Below, in pieces: positions 6,375 to 58,958 of a stretch of DNA of 64,000 nucleotides. Numbering within the stretch: the stretch's first letter is position 1; each line of letters opens with the position of its first letter. Made by a program: the position numbers and the translations under genes. The notes below the pieces were generated by a model. That model saw only the letters and a list, made by a program, of their open reading frames with translations, had not been told where the DNA came from and ran no database searches. Origin of the DNA: Clostridiales bacterium (GTDB lineage Bacteria > Bacillota > Clostridia > Lachnospirales > Lachnospiraceae); the NCBI GenBank assembly GCA_021201535.1, contig JAJQEU010000008.1, forward strand, positions 1-64,000, written 5' to 3'.

Positions 6375-6397
6375 GCGTTGGCAATGAGCCGTGCAGC

Positions 6398-6527
6398 GGA
6401 TTAAAGAAAGTCAGACACGTCATGCTTGCATGTAAGGGGCTGGCTTTCTGTAATCCGATATAGGGCGAAGCCCGGACAGTTCGCGAGCCGTAGGCTCGCG
6501 AACTGAGCACGGTGAAGTCTATGATGA
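6398..6527 (+). repeat. Structured intergenic element between ruvA and ruvB, diverged relative of the 165-bp repeat
   Basis: Three stacked hairpins: GGATT...AGAAAG paired with CTTTCT...AATCC around an apical CATGCTTGCATG (6421-6432); GGGC-gaa-GCCC (6463-6473); and a perfect 12-bp stem AGTTCGCGAGCC/GGCTCGCGAACT (6478-6504). The same order (CATGCTTGCATG, a GGGC/GCCC hairpin, a long hairpin) is found in the repeats at 28222 and 58795, though the primary sequence differs. It lies in the ruvA-ruvB message and lacks a U-run, so it is not an ordinary terminator. Confidence 0.6.
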
Positions 6528-22936: not shown

Positions 22937-23815
22937 ATGATAAAAAGCATGACAGGATTCGGACGATGTGAGAATTCCGATGCATACCGCAGGATCACGG
23001 TGGAGATAAAGTCCGTGAATCACAGATATTTTGACGTAAATGTCCGGATGCCGAGAAAACTGAATTTTTTTGACACGGCGATCCGCGCGCTGCTGAAGCA
23101 GTATGTGGAACGCGGCAAGGTGGATGTGTTTCTTACATACGAAGAACTCTCCGGACATGATATCGCGGTGACATACAATCACGCGCTTGCGGCGGAGTAT
23201 CTTTCTTATATGAGGGAGATGGTGTCGAGCTTCGGCCTGGCAGATGATATCAGCGTCAGCACGCTGTCACGCTGTCCGGAGGTTTTTTCCATGGAAGAGC
23301 ATCCTCTGGATGAGGAGGAGATCTGGACGCTTCTGGAGCGGACGCTGCGCGCGGCTCTGGATCAGTTCGTGGAGGGGCGTCTCCGCGAGGGAGAGCGTCT
23401 GAAGCAGGATCTTGAGGCAAAGCTTCAGAAGATGCTGCTCGAGGTAGATAAAATAGAATCGCGGGCGCCGGAGATTCTGGCCGAATACCGCAGCAGACTG
23501 GAGATAAAGGTGCAGGAACTGCTCGGTGATGTCCAGATGGACGAATCAAGGCTCTCTGCGGAAGTGGTGATATTTGCGGATAAGATCTGTACGGATGAGG
23601 AGACAGTTCGTCTGCGCGCACACATACATTCCATGCTGGATACGCTCGAAAGCGGAGGCGGCATCGGCCGTAAGCTGGATTTCATCGCGCAGGAGATGAA
23701 TCGGGAGGCGAATACGATCCTTTCCAAGGCAAACGATCTGGAGACCTCGAACATCGCCATCGAGTTAAAAACAGAGATCGAGAAGGTCCGCGAACAGATA
23801 CAAAACATAGAGTGA
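22937..23815 (+). CDS. YicC family endoribonuclease-like protein
   Basis: A 292-residue protein that opens MIKSMTGFGR, has VEIKSVNHRYFDVNVRMPR and ends EIEKVREQIQNIE, all standard for the YicC/YloC family. The E. coli and B. subtilis members have reported endoribonuclease activity. Residues about 150-280 are largely helical. It is the first gene of a conserved Firmicute cluster (yicC, remA, gmk, rpoZ). Its AGGAG site overlaps the arm of a hairpin repeat. Confidence 0.93.
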   Translation: MIKSMTGFGRCENSDAYRRITVEIKSVNHRYFDVNVRMPRKLNFFDTAIRALLKQYVERGKVDVFLTYEELSGHDIAVTYNHALAAEYLSYMREMVSSFGLADDISVSTLSRCPEVFSMEEHPLDEEEIWTLLERTLRAALDQFVEGRLREGERLKQDLEAKLQKMLLEVDKIESRAPEILAEYRSRLEIKVQELLGDVQMDESRLSAEVVIFADKICTDEETVRLRAHIHSMLDTLESGGGIGRKLDFIAQEMNREANTILSKANDLETSNIAIELKTEIEKVREQIQNIE

Positions 23816-23827
23816 TACAAGGGGCTA

Positions 23828-23868
23828 AAAGTCATACGACGGATGCTTGCATCCGATCGGATGACTTT
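23828..23868 (+). other. Hairpin between yicC and remA
   Basis: An outer AAAGTCAT/ATGACTTT stem encloses an inner CGGATG-CTTG-CATCCG hairpin. The inner loop core ATGCTTGCAT is the same as in the apical hairpin of the 165-bp repeats, so this may be a minimal relative. There is no U-run. Confidence 0.6.
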
Positions 23869-23896
23869 GAGACCCGGACAGATATGAGGGGAATAT

Positions 23897-24148
23897 ATGT
23901 CAGCATTTATCAATATCGGATTCGGCAATGTACTCAATACAGACAAGGTGGTTTCCATTATCAATCCGGATTCCGCGCCGGCCAAGCGGATGGTTCAGAG
24001 AGCGAGGGAAAACGAGACGCTGATCGATGCGACACAGGGGCGCAGGACGAAGAGTGTGATTGCCACGGATACAAAATACATTGTTTTGTCCGCGCTGCAG
24101 CCGGAGACACTGGCCGGGCGCTGTCAGGACAGAGAGGTGGAATCATGA
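23897..24148 (+). CDS. remA: RemA family regulator (DUF370)
   Basis: An 83-residue protein, MSAFINIGFGNVLNTDKVVS, with SAPAKRMVQRAREN, the RemA/RemB pattern. In Bacillus RemA is a ring-forming DNA-binding protein that activates matrix and osmoprotection genes; many Clostridia keep it upstream of gmk. The GAGGGGA site lies just before ATG 23897. The stop overlaps the gmk ATG by 4 nt, so the two are coupled. Confidence 0.93.
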   Translation: MSAFINIGFGNVLNTDKVVSIINPDSAPAKRMVQRARENETLIDATQGRRTKSVIATDTKYIVLSALQPETLAGRCQDREVES

Positions 24149-27635: not shown

Positions 27636-28118
27636 ATGAAAAGAGCAATCTATCCGGGAAGCTTTGACCCGCCGACCTTCGGTCATCTGGATATTATTGA
27701 GAGATCATCCAGAATGGTGGACGAGCTGAATGTCGCCGTGTTAAAAAACAATGCAAAAAATCCGTTGTTTTCTGTCGAAGAACGTGTTAGTATGATTAAG
27801 GAACTGACGGCGCATCTTCCGAATGTGACGGTGAGCTCATTTGACGGATTGACGGCTGATTATGCGAGGAGTATCGGTGCGACCATTGTTGTCCGCGGAC
27901 TGCGGGCGGTCACGGATTTTGAGTACGAGCTCCAGATTGCGCAGACCAATCACGTGGTTAACGATCAGGTAGATACGATTTTCCTGACGACCAGTTTGCT
28001 CTATTCCTATCTGAGTTCCACGATTGTGAAGGAAGTGGCTTCCTACGGAGGCGATATTTCCAGGTTTGTACCGGCGTCGGTGATTGATAAGGTTTACCGG
28101 AAGTTTCACATTGAATGA
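27636..28118 (+). CDS. coaD: Phosphopantetheine adenylyltransferase
   Basis: A 160-residue nucleotidyltransferase that joins ATP and 4'-phosphopantetheine to dephospho-CoA. The motif [16 protein letters not shown] includes the T/HxGH signature (TFGH), and the second motif is [13 protein letters not shown]. Start codon ATG 27636 follows the rsmD stop closely, with only a weak ribosome site, so translation is probably coupled. Confidence 0.97.
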
Positions 28119-28171: not shown

Positions 28172-28221
28172 GCTTTGTTCCGGTGCAGCCGTGGAACCGT
28201 AAAAAAGACAGCTATCATTTG

Positions 28222-28386
28222 CTATGAAAGTGTCGTGAATAGACAGACAGATGGGCATGCTTGCATGACCAGATGGCTGGATATTCGACGACCAGGACGG
28301 TATGAGCAAGTAGGGCGATTAGCCCGGATTGCGAATACCGGCGACGATTGCGGGAGCACGAAGTGCGGAGCAATCGACTTTCATAG
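28222..28386 (+). repeat. 165-bp structured repeat, copy 1 (coaD to coiled-coil gene spacer)
   Basis: It begins CTATGAAAGTGTCGT and ends CAATCGACTTTCATAG, so the ends pair (CTATGAAAGT with ACTTTCATAG). Inside are three hairpins: GTCGT..AATA with TATTCGACGAC around CATGCTTGCATG; GCAA...GGGC-gatta-GCCC...TTGC; and CGATTGC..CAC-gaa-GTG..GCAATCG. The copy at 58795-58958 is about 90% identical, and several differences fall on both sides of a stem and keep pairing. No protein frame is shared between copies. It is best read as a structured RNA or DNA element. Confidence 0.8.
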
Positions 28387-28461
28387 ATGTTGGCGCGCTG
28401 CGACAGCAGCGCATGGAAGTTTTATATATAGACAGATTGCGAAGAGAAAGGAGTTTTTCAT

Positions 28462-29070
28462 ATGAACAGCCGTTTAGAACAGATCATTGCGGAGATCGAG
28501 GAATACATAGACAACTGCAAGCCGCAGGCTCTCTCGAAGGGGAAGATCGTGGTCGACAGAGAAGAGATTATGGAGCTCTTGACGGAGCTGCGTCTGAAGA
28601 CGCCGGAGGAGATCAAGCGCTATCAGAAGATCATCGCAAACAAGGATGCGATTCTCTCGGACGCGCAGACGAAAGCGGACGAGATCCTCGCACAGGCAAA
28701 GATTCAGACGAGTGAGCTGATCAGTGAGCATCAGATCATGCAGCAGGCGTATGCGCAGGCAAATGAGGTTGTCTCCATAGCGACGAACCAGGCACAGGAG
28801 ATTCTGGACAAGGCGACCGAGGATGCCAACGCGATCCGTACCGCTTCCATTGAGTATACAGACAATCTCCTGAGCAATATGGAGAATATCATGGTCCATG
28901 CGATCGATTCCTCCAGGGAAAAATACGACGGTCTGTTGTCCTCGCTTCAGAATTGTTATGAAATCGTAAAGGCGAACCGGAATGAACTGTCTCCTTCCAC
29001 GGAGGATGCGGCGGATGACACCGAGACATCTTCGCAGGAGTCGAAGCCGGAGGAGATCGATCTGATCTGA
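28462..29070 (+). CDS. Coiled-coil protein (ATP synthase subunit H/DivIVA-like), function unknown
   Basis: A 202-residue, soluble, almost wholly helical protein. Residues about 60-130 form a long coiled coil rich in Ala, Gln and Glu (ADEILAQAKIQTSEL; TNQAQEILDKATEDANAI), and the last 30 residues are acidic and Ser/Thr rich. Similar proteins downstream of coaD in Lachnospiraceae are annotated as vacuolar-type ATPase subunit H-like or cell-division proteins by coiled-coil similarity only. AGGAG precedes ATG 28462. The 343-bp spacer before it holds two structured repeats and a further GCGCTG/CAGCGC hairpin near 28392-28413. Confidence 0.75.
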   Translation: MNSRLEQIIAEIEEYIDNCKPQALSKGKIVVDREEIMELLTELRLKTPEEIKRYQKIIANKDAILSDAQTKADEILAQAKIQTSELISEHQIMQQAYAQANEVVSIATNQAQEILDKATEDANAIRTASIEYTDNLLSNMENIMVHAIDSSREKYDGLLSSLQNCYEIVKANRNELSPSTEDAADDTETSSQESKPEEIDLI

Positions 29071-41176: not shown

Positions 41177-41203
41177 CGGAAAACGACTTAAGTCGTTTCC
41201 TGT
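41177..41203 (+). repeat. GGAAACGA-type hairpin repeat, copy 4
   Basis: CGGAAAACGAC, loop TTAA, GTCGTTTCCTGT, with one extra A in the left arm. It lies between the small membrane gene and the end of the convergent TauE-like gene. Confidence 0.75.
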
Positions 41204-41249
41204 AACTTATGAAGATTGTGCCGAATAATGTGTGAAGCGCAGGCCCTGA

Positions 41250-42044
41250 TTACAGAAGAATCTTCATCAGGATCATAATAACGCCGAGCGCGGTCAGCAC
41301 GGCGCCGGTTACGAGACCGACCGTCCGGCCGTTGACCCGGTTCGCGAACTGTGCGGACGCAATCGAAGCGGCGGACTCGGTCGCCATGCACAGAATGAGG
41401 ATTTTCCAGTCGTCAAAGAGTATGGCCGGATCGATGAGAGAGTGGCTGACAAATGCGATGATGGCGGTAAACGTCATGATGAAGGTGCTTGTCCCGACGG
41501 CGATCTTCCGGTTCATGCCGAGAAAAGCAGTAAAGACCACAAGCATCATCATTCCGCCGCCGGAGCCGACGAAGCCGGTGCCGAATCCGATCGTCAGGCC
41601 GTAGAAGAGGGAGGTGGCAACGGCTCTCCGGTTCAGATCAGCGCCTTTTGCGACCGTATTTTCCCGCTGCGTATCCGGTTTTAAGAGAAAGCGGATGCCG
41701 ATACCCACGCAGAGAATGAGCGAAAAGCTGCCCAGCACCACATTCCCGACCAGGAAGGCGGCGAAGCTGCCCGCCACACACATGCAGATAATGCAGATCA
41801 TCATGATCCGCCCCCGTTTCAGGTCGATGTTTCTGTGCCGGATATAGATCCCGGCGGTAAACGCGGAACCCAGAATATCCGACGCGAGGGCGATCGCGGT
41901 CGCGTGATATGCGCCGGTCTCTCCGGCGAATGAAGGACATAATACGATTAAGATCGGAACCATCACCGTCGCGGCGGAGAGCCCCGCCAGACCGGTTCCG
42001 ACGCCCGCTCCGAGAGCGGCGATAAAGCACCAGAAATATTCCAT
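41250..42044 (-). CDS. Sulfite exporter TauE/SafE family permease
   Basis: A 264-residue protein with about eight hydrophobic segments and the internal duplication of this family: GLAGLSAATVMVPIL near the start and GTGFVGSGGGMMMLVVF in the second half. Members move small sulfur or carboxylate anions, but the substrate here is unknown. It ends GVIMILMKILL. GAGGAGA lies just before the start on the minus strand. Confidence 0.88.
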   Translation of the reverse strand: MEYFWCFIAALGAGVGTGLAGLSAATVMVPILIVLCPSFAGETGAYHATAIALASDILGSAFTAGIYIRHRNIDLKRGRIMMICIICMCVAGSFAAFLVGNVVLGSFSLILCVGIGIRFLLKPDTQRENTVAKGADLNRRAVATSLFYGLTIGFGTGFVGSGGGMMMLVVFTAFLGMNRKIAVGTSTFIMTFTAIIAFVSHSLIDPAILFDDWKILILCMATESAASIASAQFANRVNGRTVGLVTGAVLTALGVIMILMKILL

Positions 42045-56402: not shown

Positions 56403-56590
56403 AAAGAACGTTATAAGACAAAATCATTGAGCAAAAAGAGTACTTTTATGTGCTGCGCCACAGAGAGCCGGAGCTGCTGAGATTCCGGCACGCAAGTATA
56501 AAAGGAATGGGTTTGTGAGATGCTTCCGCGAAATTACGGAGTAGCGGATGCCGTGTCCTCACGTTACAGAGGAAAGATATAGAAGCGGAT

Positions 56591-56672
56591 ATAATGTTTT
56601 CTGCATGACTCACCGGCGGATATTCTCGCTTTGCCGGGGCAGATCCTGCGTGGTCAGGGAATGACACATGAC
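56591..56672 (+). repeat. ~82-bp repeat inside the T-box leader
   Basis: It begins ATAATGTTTTCTGCATGAC and includes TCGCTTTGCCGGGGCAGA and GTGGTCAGGGAATGACA. A copy about 75% alike lies at 60541-60622, between trpF and trpB. Being in the Stem II/III part, it may replace or extend those stems. Confidence 0.7.
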
Positions 56673-56757
56673 GACTCCTTCTGTATCGGATGAGGTTGCA
56701 GGAATATTCTGCCGGATGATTCTGCAATGAACAAGGGTGGCACCACGATGATTCGTC

Positions 56758-56794
56758 CCTGACTGTGATTGATTTACAGTCAGGGCTTTTTTGT
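56758..56794 (+). terminator. T-box controlled terminator
   Basis: CCCTGACTGT pairs with ACAGTCAGGG (9-base loop), followed by CTTTTTTG. The left arm lies right after the T-box, so antiterminator and terminator exclude each other. Confidence 0.92.
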
Positions 56795-56821: not shown

Positions 56822-58237
56822 ATGAAACGAATTCGAAGGGTATATAAAAAAACGGTCAGCATTGTCCGGGAGACGCCGATCGAGATGTATGAGAATATGG
56901 TCGGCGGCCGGAAAGGTTTTCTGCTGGAAAGCTATGACAAAAATTATGACACGTTCACGATTTTCGGGGCGGATCCGGAGGAGATCATTACTTCGAGGGG
57001 GCATGCGCTCGTCATCACGGGGGCGGACGGCTCTGTCGAAGTCCGGGAGGGGAATCCCCATGAGCGCCTGAAGGAATATTACGATGAGTTTGAGATACGT
57101 CAGGACAATCACGAGCTTTCCTTTACCGGCGGCCTGGTCGGAAACCTCGGTTATGATTACATCCGTTACACGGAGGTGCTCCCGGATGAGAATCCGGACG
57201 ACATCGGCATTGAGACGATCCAGATGATGCTGATGACGCGTTTTATCGTGGTGGATCATCTCTCGGAGACGATGACGGCGGTCGTCCTGGAAGAAGATTC
57301 CGAGGCGGGCAGGGAACGGGCGCTGGCCGAAGCCGCGCGGATGCTGGATGCGGCGCGGACGGATGTGCCGGAAAATCACAGAGACGGCGCGTTCATCCGG
57401 GATGGAAAGATTATCCACAAAACAGATACGCTTGAGGAGTATGGTGAAAAGGTGGAGCGGATCCGGCATTATATCCGTGAGGGACATATTTTCCAGACCG
57501 TGCTGTCACAGCGCTGGACGATCGAGACCGGTCAGGATGGATTTACGCTGTATAAGCATCTGCGCGAGATCAATCCGTCGCCGTATCTGTACTATTATAA
57601 TTACGGCGATTTCGAGGTGATCGGCAGCTCGCCGGAGATGATTGTGAAACAGCAGGGAGACCGTGTGTTTACCTGCCCGATCGCGGGGAGCCGTCCGCGC
57701 GGTAAATCGAAGGAGGAGGATCTGGCTCTGACGGAGGAGCTTCTGGCGGATGAGAAGGAACTGGCGGAGCATGTGATGCTGGTAGATCTCGCCCGCAATG
57801 ACATGGGGCGTATCTCGGAGTTCGGCACCGTGAAGCTCATGGAATTCATGAAGGTACAGTATTATTCTCATGTGATGCACATCGTCTCTCTGGTGGAGGG
57901 ACGGAAAAAGGGCGTATACCATCCGCTGGATCTGGTGGCTTCCTTCCTGCCGGCGGGAACCTTAAGCGGTGCGCCGAAGATCCGCGCGATGGAGATCATT
58001 GATGAGCTGGAGACCACCCGCCGCGGTCTGTACGGCGGCGCAACCGGGTATGTGGATTTCTCCGGAGACATGGATTTCTGCATCACCATACGCACGATGA
58101 TCAAACAGGGAAATAAGGTATATCTGCAGGCGGGCGCCGGTATTGTCGCTGATTCTGTTCCGGAGAAGGAATATCAGGAATGCTGCAACAAGGTGATGGC
58201 ACTCGCGAAAACGCTTGTGACGGAGGAAAACTTATGA
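56822..58237 (+). CDS. trpE: Anthranilate synthase component I
   Basis: A 471-residue chorismate-using enzyme that makes anthranilate with TrpG. Conserved parts are SPSPYLYYYNYGDFEVIGSS, FTCPIAGSRPRGKS, LVDLARNDMGRI, PAGTLSGAPKIRAMEII and GGATGYVDFSGDMDFCITIRT, ending QAGAGIVADSVPEKE. The N-terminal feedback region is present and slightly short. Its stop overlaps the trpG start by 4 nt (ATGA). It is the first gene of the T-box-controlled operon. Confidence 0.97.
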   Translation: MKRIRRVYKKTVSIVRETPIEMYENMVGGRKGFLLESYDKNYDTFTIFGADPEEIITSRGHALVITGADGSVEVREGNPHERLKEYYDEFEIRQDNHELSFTGGLVGNLGYDYIRYTEVLPDENPDDIGIETIQMMLMTRFIVVDHLSETMTAVVLEEDSEAGRERALAEAARMLDAARTDVPENHRDGAFIRDGKIIHKTDTLEEYGEKVERIRHYIREGHIFQTVLSQRWTIETGQDGFTLYKHLREINPSPYLYYYNYGDFEVIGSSPEMIVKQQGDRVFTCPIAGSRPRGKSKEEDLALTEELLADEKELAEHVMLVDLARNDMGRISEFGTVKLMEFMKVQYYSHVMHIVSLVEGRKKGVYHPLDLVASFLPAGTLSGAPKIRAMEIIDELETTRRGLYGGATGYVDFSGDMDFCITIRTMIKQGNKVYLQAGAGIVADSVPEKEYQECCNKVMALAKTLVTEENL

Positions 58238-58800
58238 TCTTACTGATTGATAATTACGACTCATTCACCTATAATCTATATCAGTTTATGGGGATATTTA
58301 CCGATGACATTACCGTCGTCCGGAATGATAAGATTACCGTTGAGGAGATTCGGCAGATGAAGCCGGAGCGGATCGTCCTCTCGCCGGGACCGAAGAGTCC
58401 GAAGGAGGCGGGCATCTGTCTGGATGTGATCCGGGAGTTTTATGACAGGCTGCCGATCCTCGGCATCTGCCTCGGCCATCAGAGCATCGGCGAGGCGCTG
58501 GGCGGAACGGTTTCCTACGCGAAGAAGATTTTTCACGGGAAACAGTCCACGATCCGGCATTCCGGCACGGGAATTTTTGAGGGCGTGCCATCGCCTCTGA
58601 AGGTGGCGAGATATCATTCACTTGCCGTGCAGAAGGAAGGGCTCCCGGACTGCCTGGAGATTCTGGCGGAGACGGATGACGGGGAGATCATGGCAATCAA
58701 ACACAGGGATTATCCGGTGTACGGGATGCAGTTTCACCCGGAGTCGATCTATACGGAGCACGGGAAGAAAATACTGGAGATGTTTCTAAACATACTATGA
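58234..58800 (+). CDS. trpG: Anthranilate synthase component II (glutamine amidotransferase)
   Basis: A 188-residue class I amidotransferase that supplies ammonia to TrpE. It opens MILLIDNYDSFTYNLYQ and has the nucleophile Cys in LGICLGHQSIGE and the His-Glu pair in GMQFHPESIYTEHG. It is not fused to TrpD, unlike in some relatives. The last codon and stop (CTATGA) form the start of the 164-bp structured repeat, so the element appears to have supplied or overlapped the gene end. Confidence 0.96.
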   Translation: MILLIDNYDSFTYNLYQFMGIFTDDITVVRNDKITVEEIRQMKPERIVLSPGPKSPKEAGICLDVIREFYDRLPILGICLGHQSIGEALGGTVSYAKKIFHGKQSTIRHSGTGIFEGVPSPLKVARYHSLAVQKEGLPDCLEILAETDDGEIMAIKHRDYPVYGMQFHPESIYTEHGKKILEMFLNIL

Positions 58801-58958
58801 AAGTGTCGTCAATAGACAGACAGATGGACATGCTTGCATGGCCAGATGGCTGGATATTCGACGACCAGGACGGTATGAGTATGTAGGCCGATAGGCCGGA
58901 ATACGAATACCGGCGGCGATTGCGGGAGTGCGTAGCACGGAGCAATCGACTTTCATAG
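58795..58958 (+). repeat. 165-bp structured repeat, copy 2 (trpG to trpC spacer)
   Basis: It begins CTATGAAAGTGTCGT and ends CAATCGACTTTCATAG, like the copy at 28222-28386. The middle hairpin is GTAT...GGCC-gata-GGCC...ATAC where copy 1 has GCAA...GGGC-gatta-GCCC...TTGC. The third hairpin has TGC-gta-GCA where copy 1 has CAC-gaa-GTG. Changes on both arms keep pairing. It lies within the trp operon message. Confidence 0.82.

Follow-up and report, generated by a model that had tools for sequence, protein, structure and literature searches.

Two copies of a repeat of about 165 bp lie in the window, the 64,000-nucleotide stretch of a Clostridiales (Lachnospiraceae) contig analysed here, and they raise the question of what kind of element is being maintained and how it came to occupy its sites. 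The original prediction had placed the copies at the coordinates given in Table 1, which we verified; both lie on the same strand, are 90% identical and thus differ at about 10% of positions. All three of the compensatory changes that had been pointed out are present (GCAA/TTGC to GTAT/ATAC, GGGC/GCCC to GGCC/GGCC, and CAC/GTG to TGC/GCA), and the proposed pairing of the repeat ends was found as well, extending over 10 bp. In the common fold of the two copies, this 10-bp closing stem encloses three hairpins. The folding z-scores are -8.4 for copy 1 including an additional 3' hairpin and -8.8 for copy 2, with equally good folds in none of 200 shuffles.

The layout had been thought to belong to no named RNA family. 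This has to be revised, since the repeat matches Rfam family RF01699 end to end: both window copies align to model positions 1-166 of 166 with the bit scores listed in Table 1, the curated cutoff of the Rfam covariance model being 48 bits. RF01699 is the Clostridiales-1 RNA, a family that originates from the work of Weinberg et al. (2010; PMC2864571), where it is described as a probable RNA from Clostridiales and the human gut that is neither cis-regulatory nor a switch; Rfam gives its type as Gene; sRNA. It is an orphan RNA family that has been in print since 2010 and was already named before this analysis. In the open-access literature that we searched, no statement on mobility of RF01699 was found. 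What is apparently new is that RF01699 is a transposable element with two types of ends.

Table 1. Element copies, their structural parts and the neighbouring genes of copy 1, in window coordinates.
Feature	Position	Strand	Evidence
Strongly diverged copy upstream of putative ruvB	6388..6513	+	Rfam 45.0 bits, below cutoff
Degenerate half copy, type B-like 5' end (TGATACAAGGGG)	23813..23912	+	Rfam 41.4 bits, below cutoff
Gene 5' of copy 1 unit, cytidylyltransferase-like	27636-28118		Pfam
Copy 1, complete inserted unit (+/- 4 nt at each edge)	28218..28424	+	missing in relatives
Copy 1 of Clostridiales-1 RNA (RF01699), full length	28222..28386	+	Rfam 114.8 bits, fold, covariation
Copy 1 closing stem	28222-28231/28377-28386	+	fold
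Copy 1 hairpin 1	28232-28292	+	fold
Copy 1 hairpin 2	28298-28340	+	fold
Copy 1 hairpin 3	28345-28376	+	fold
3' tail of inserted unit: extra hairpin, end AAGTTTTA	28387..28424	+	common 3' flank of type A copies
Extra 3' hairpin stem of copy 1	28395-28401/28406-28412	+	
Gene 3' of copy 1 unit	starts 28462		
Copy 2 of Clostridiales-1 RNA (RF01699)	58795..58958	+	Rfam 115.6 bits, fold
Copy 2 closing stem	58795-58804/58949-58958	+	fold
Copy 2 hairpin 1	58805-58865	+	fold
Copy 2 hairpin 2	58871-58912	+	fold
Copy 2 hairpin 3	58917-58948	+	fold

That selection acts on a four-part fold rather than on a protein, as originally proposed, is strongly supported by covariation across the genus in combination with strand asymmetry. 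For this analysis, 50 copies were chosen from the 121 in the genus, mostly less than 85% identical to each other and including both window copies, and the Rfam structure was laid on a sequence-only alignment. The covariation score of 0.461, compared to 0.154 after shuffling, was matched in none of 500 shuffles. Changes on both sides occur at 55 of the 59 pairs, and 84.9% of cells are paired as opposed to 64.2% in shuffled alignments and 34-41% when partners are slid by 1-3 columns. Cells with two-sided changes number 583 (202 shuffled), and neither this count nor the paired-cell fraction was reached in 500 shuffles. The additional copies thus retain the stems rather than breaking them, hairpin 3 being kept paired in 98.6-99% of cells. 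In all 49 of 49 copies, folding is more stable for the forward strand than for the complementary one, with a mean difference of -12.1 kcal/mol. Counted on individual folds, there are 36 internal G-U pairs against 7 A-C mismatches, as compared to 13 against 18 on the complementary strand; the raw count on the sequence-only alignment (84 against 77) is uninformative because hairpin 1 misaligns there, which the count on individual folds resolved. The asymmetric stability together with the excess of G-U pairs indicates that the selected object is one strand, which would most simply be read as RNA, with single-stranded DNA as the alternative. The GCUUGC loop is conserved at 76 of 99 independent sites; an RNA-stabilising effect is known for CUUG-type loops as well as for G-A internal loops.

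Covariance-model searches of the genome and its relatives yielded 23 copies above the Rfam cutoff and many fragments in the window's own genome (2.77 Mb), and the element is found in 19 of 20 genomes of the genus, at 0-58 copies per genome. Across a family sample of 150 genomes, one per genus, its occurrence is patchy (64 above cutoff); few genomes from the rest of the class score above cutoff (7 of 245), and none of 14 control genomes contains it. Named matches are mostly Lachnospiraceae or Clostridiales metagenome assemblies. The placement of RF01699 on small transposable elements would explain this high and patchy copy number. Two further, decayed copies in the window fall below the Rfam cutoff (Table 1) and were scored by our own covariance model at 46.4 bits (E 2e-10) for the half copy and 26 bits (E 5e-5) for the strongly diverged one. 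The gene downstream of the latter is labelled ruvB-like from the start of its protein alone. The gap upstream of this gene holds the decayed copy in the window and, in genome G007 (L305, G007:C52), two type B ends joined into a 34-bp unit with GTAATAT on both flanks, the gap having been hit separately.

At copy 1, the boundaries of what was inserted can be read from relatives. The original prediction overlooked both the mobility of the element and the fact that the inserted unit exceeds the RNA in length. Copy 1 lies between a gene that we take to be coaD, encoding phosphopantetheine adenylyltransferase, and the gene starting at 28462. It is absent from all 17 relatives in which a single contig covers the two flanks, these being no more than 65 bp apart, and the sister genome G004 (about 96% identical) shows an empty site, GACAGATGTCACATTTTATATATAGACAG, without the element. 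Missing jointly from this empty site are the RNA and a further 3' hairpin, which together make up the inserted unit of about 200 bp. The 3' hairpin is common to most copies of this subfamily (type A) in the genome, and by eye its stem varies yet pairs (GCGCTGC/GCAGCGC, ATGACTGC/GCAGTCAT, GTGCTCAC/GTGAGCAT). The cleanest second pair of filled and empty sites, L006, reads gaaattatgttaaagg where empty in G004 and aaaatta[element]ttatgttaaagg where filled; a third site (L008) is nearly empty in G004. As a rule, type A copies have T(T)TA in front of them and GTTTA as their last bases; an automatic call, imperfect and wrong for several rows, put TTA immediately 5' of the element in 19 of 38 type A rows. 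No terminal inverted repeats are visible in type A by inspection, and the target duplication is at most 3-4 bp (TTA/TTTA). The T(T)TA seen at either edge is compatible with a duplication of 3-4 bp and with a fixed target. When type A was searched generically for duplications, consecutive copies and the constant TTTA dominated the outcome.

Copy 2, which is without the extra 3' hairpin, sits between trpG and trpC (GATase and IGPS by Pfam), where its start, CTATGA, provides the trpG stop codon (58798-58800), the open reading frame ending at 58800. The copy at this site is shared by G004, while a middle-deleted version is present in G008 and a remnant in G003; to judge from this distribution, copy 2 is older than copy 1. 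The trpG-trpC gap of G007 carries an unrelated insertion of the other subfamily (type B) with ATGTGAT on both flanks. Upstream of the trp operon that houses copy 2, a T-box leader (RF00230, 111 bits) spans 56418-56763, and it is followed at 56822 by a gene for an anthranilate synthase component.

Type B copies share the RNA core of type A and begin with TGAT[A/G]CC. They carry imperfect, GATRCCAGGGTCAAAAGG-like terminal repeats over about 18 bp (GATACCAGGGTCAAAAGG against GATGTTGGGGTCAAAAGG), the right half of which lies about 20 nt past the end of the Rfam model. Immediately outside these repeats are 7-bp target duplications, often ATNNNAT, that are exact at 23 of 41 sites and match in at least 6 of 7 positions at 29 of 41, where 5.3 sites are expected by chance and 13 was the maximum in 2000 shuffles. 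Repeats and duplications were seen in several genera. Many type B units of G057 are exactly 183 bp long, and the same genome contains 69-bp perfect-hairpin derivatives without hairpins 2 and 3 that have their own 7-bp duplications, from which it follows that the RNA core may be dispensable for movement. Type B has the anatomy of MITEs that are mobilised by DDE-type transposases, and the terminal repeats and 7-bp duplications make such an enzyme acting in trans the most likely mover of the element.

The copies have themselves been targets of rearrangement. A hairpin repeat of about 45 bp (CGGCCCAGGCCGCC...CAATTCACCTTG) occurs at two different places within element copies (L011, L012, L013 and L015, on G000 C115, C86, C28 and C13), indicating that other small palindromic repeats nest in the element, and in L082 (G000:C118, ~41194-41353) hairpin 1 is interrupted by another repeat, about 160 bp long, whose ends are inverted (CTAGTACATCGAATAATTAAT...). 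Hairpins 2 and 3 are lost from the shortened copies L021, L022, L023, L086, L088 and L090; in several of them the lost segment lies between short repeats of TCGAC, which would fit slippage during replication. At the site of one shortened copy (L023), the sister genome G004 has a different, unrelated palindromic insertion (L167).

No autonomous relative or transposase was found among the matches listed when seven draft genomes were searched by terminal-repeat patterns; in these genomes, intervals bounded by element ends contain only the RNA unit or its deletion derivatives, or host genes when longer. Of the 20 genus genomes, 8 encode Y1_Tnp; no such gene was found in the genomes G003, G007 and G014, whose copy numbers are 28-58, and no element ends were found beside Y1 genes. 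We rejected a Y1 transposase as the mover on the grounds that its counts are unrelated to element copy number and its loci are without element ends. A phage or plasmid vehicle was likewise discarded, since plasmids and viral contigs gave no match and phages a single one, weak and partial.

The orientation of the element relative to its surroundings is biased. Between genes of the same direction, with the longest open frame serving as gene proxy, 39 independent sites are in sense and 12 in antisense (p 2e-4); for type A alone the numbers are 6 and 3. The bias fits a presumed co-transcription with the downstream gene, and it could alternatively arise if the element inserts into the lagging strand and the genes of the genome are co-oriented.

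Taken as a whole, we consider a non-autonomous, MITE-like transposable element with a Clostridiales-1 structured RNA core to be the likely identity of the repeat, the role of the RNA being putative. Several other origins were weighed against this. The 90% identity of copies 1 and 2 could point to a local duplication of recent date, the stem differences being mutations or sequencing errors; this we regard as ruled out by the distribution of the two copies, since G004 has copy 2 and lacks the younger copy 1, and moreover the flanks of the two are unrelated, other genomic copies are nearer to copy 1 than copy 2 is, and the covariation spans the genus. A leader or riboswitch that benefits the host in cis and was spread by selection would account for the sense bias upstream of and between genes, but is very improbable, as neither its sites are conserved among close relatives nor its neighbours related to each other (trp genes, a cytidylyltransferase and others), and copies decay freely. 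A stand-alone, trans-acting small RNA gene amplified by ordinary duplication is what the Rfam type and the classification of 2010 would lead one to expect, and the covarying, strand-specific fold agrees with it; the scatter of tens of copies, their precise edges of insertion and their duplicated targets, insertions within operons such as between trpG and trpC, and the sense bias relative to adjacent genes argue against it, and we think it quite unlikely.

A closer competitor in kind is a structure that acts in DNA only, with single-stranded hairpins recognised by a transposase in the style of IS200/IS605, REP or PATE and the RNA without a role. The T(T)TA edges of type A, its hairpins at both ends and its lack of visible repeats or a long duplication would be in line with this, and both the selection on one strand and the bias in orientation towards genes could result from lagging-strand insertion. 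Type B, however, keeps the same one-strand fold despite imperfect terminal repeats and 7-bp duplications, the copy-rich genomes named above gave no Y1 transposase, and the CUUG-type loop and G-A internal loops are the RNA-stabilising features already mentioned; we see this reading as possible while leaning against it. Somewhat more doubtful still, in our view, is that one RNA core rides on two kinds of mobile element that differ in their ends and insertion chemistry (T(T)TA for type A, 7-bp duplications for type B) because the function of the RNA itself is selected, a role that could aid the element, by binding transposase or shielding the interrupted mRNA, or the host. Were this true, RF01699 would be a selfish RNA module and not simply a DNA parasite.

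For the MITE-like element with an RNA core that we favour, the following course can be proposed. The element is inserted as a unit into intergenic sites, most likely moved by a DDE-type transposase supplied in trans, with the type A subfamily inserting beside T(T)TA and carrying its extra 3' hairpin along. It would then be transcribed within neighbouring mRNAs, where its RNA would fold into the closing stem and three hairpins. The RNA segment might serve processing, stability or spacing, and the conserved G-A internal loops may be bound by a putative protein. The least certain step is the reason for the conservation of the RNA. Mobility corrects the expectation that RF01699 is an ordinary small RNA gene, and its function is now testable, insertion edges, target duplications and filled and empty pairs being defined. 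It also raises the sharper question of why a MITE retains a strand-specific, covarying RNA fold.

Several known systems share parts of this picture. With respect to MITEs in general, the element is short and non-coding, has many dispersed copies and shows filled and empty sites. ERIC, NEMIS, RUP and BOX are bacterial MITEs, and the element resembles them in being short, non-coding, intergenic, multicopy and, as they often are, co-transcribable, as well as in the terminal repeats and target duplication of type B; it differs in its conserved, multi-hairpin, covarying RNA core that is common to subfamilies with unlike ends. PATE are palindromic elements derived from IS200/IS605, and type A resembles these and REP in its hairpins at either end, its short constant T(T)TA edge and its lack of a visible terminal inverted repeat; in contrast to them, no Y1 transposase is linked, and the same RNA core recurs in type B with repeats and 7-bp duplications. 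HEARO RNA is a structured RNA that was first found by comparative genomics and later linked to mobile elements. No nuclease gene is linked to the element described here, and its sequence and fold are presumably unrelated to those of HEARO; the parallel lies in an orphan structured RNA that turned out to be part of a mobile element. The closest relation is to the Clostridiales-1 RNA itself, with which the repeat shares all 166 model positions, the closing stem and three hairpins, and the range in Clostridiales and the gut. As curated, RF01699 is a small RNA with no assigned function; the moved unit described here exceeds it in length, type A adding a 3' hairpin and type B a 3' terminal repeat about 20 nt past the RNA end, and it behaves as a mobile element.
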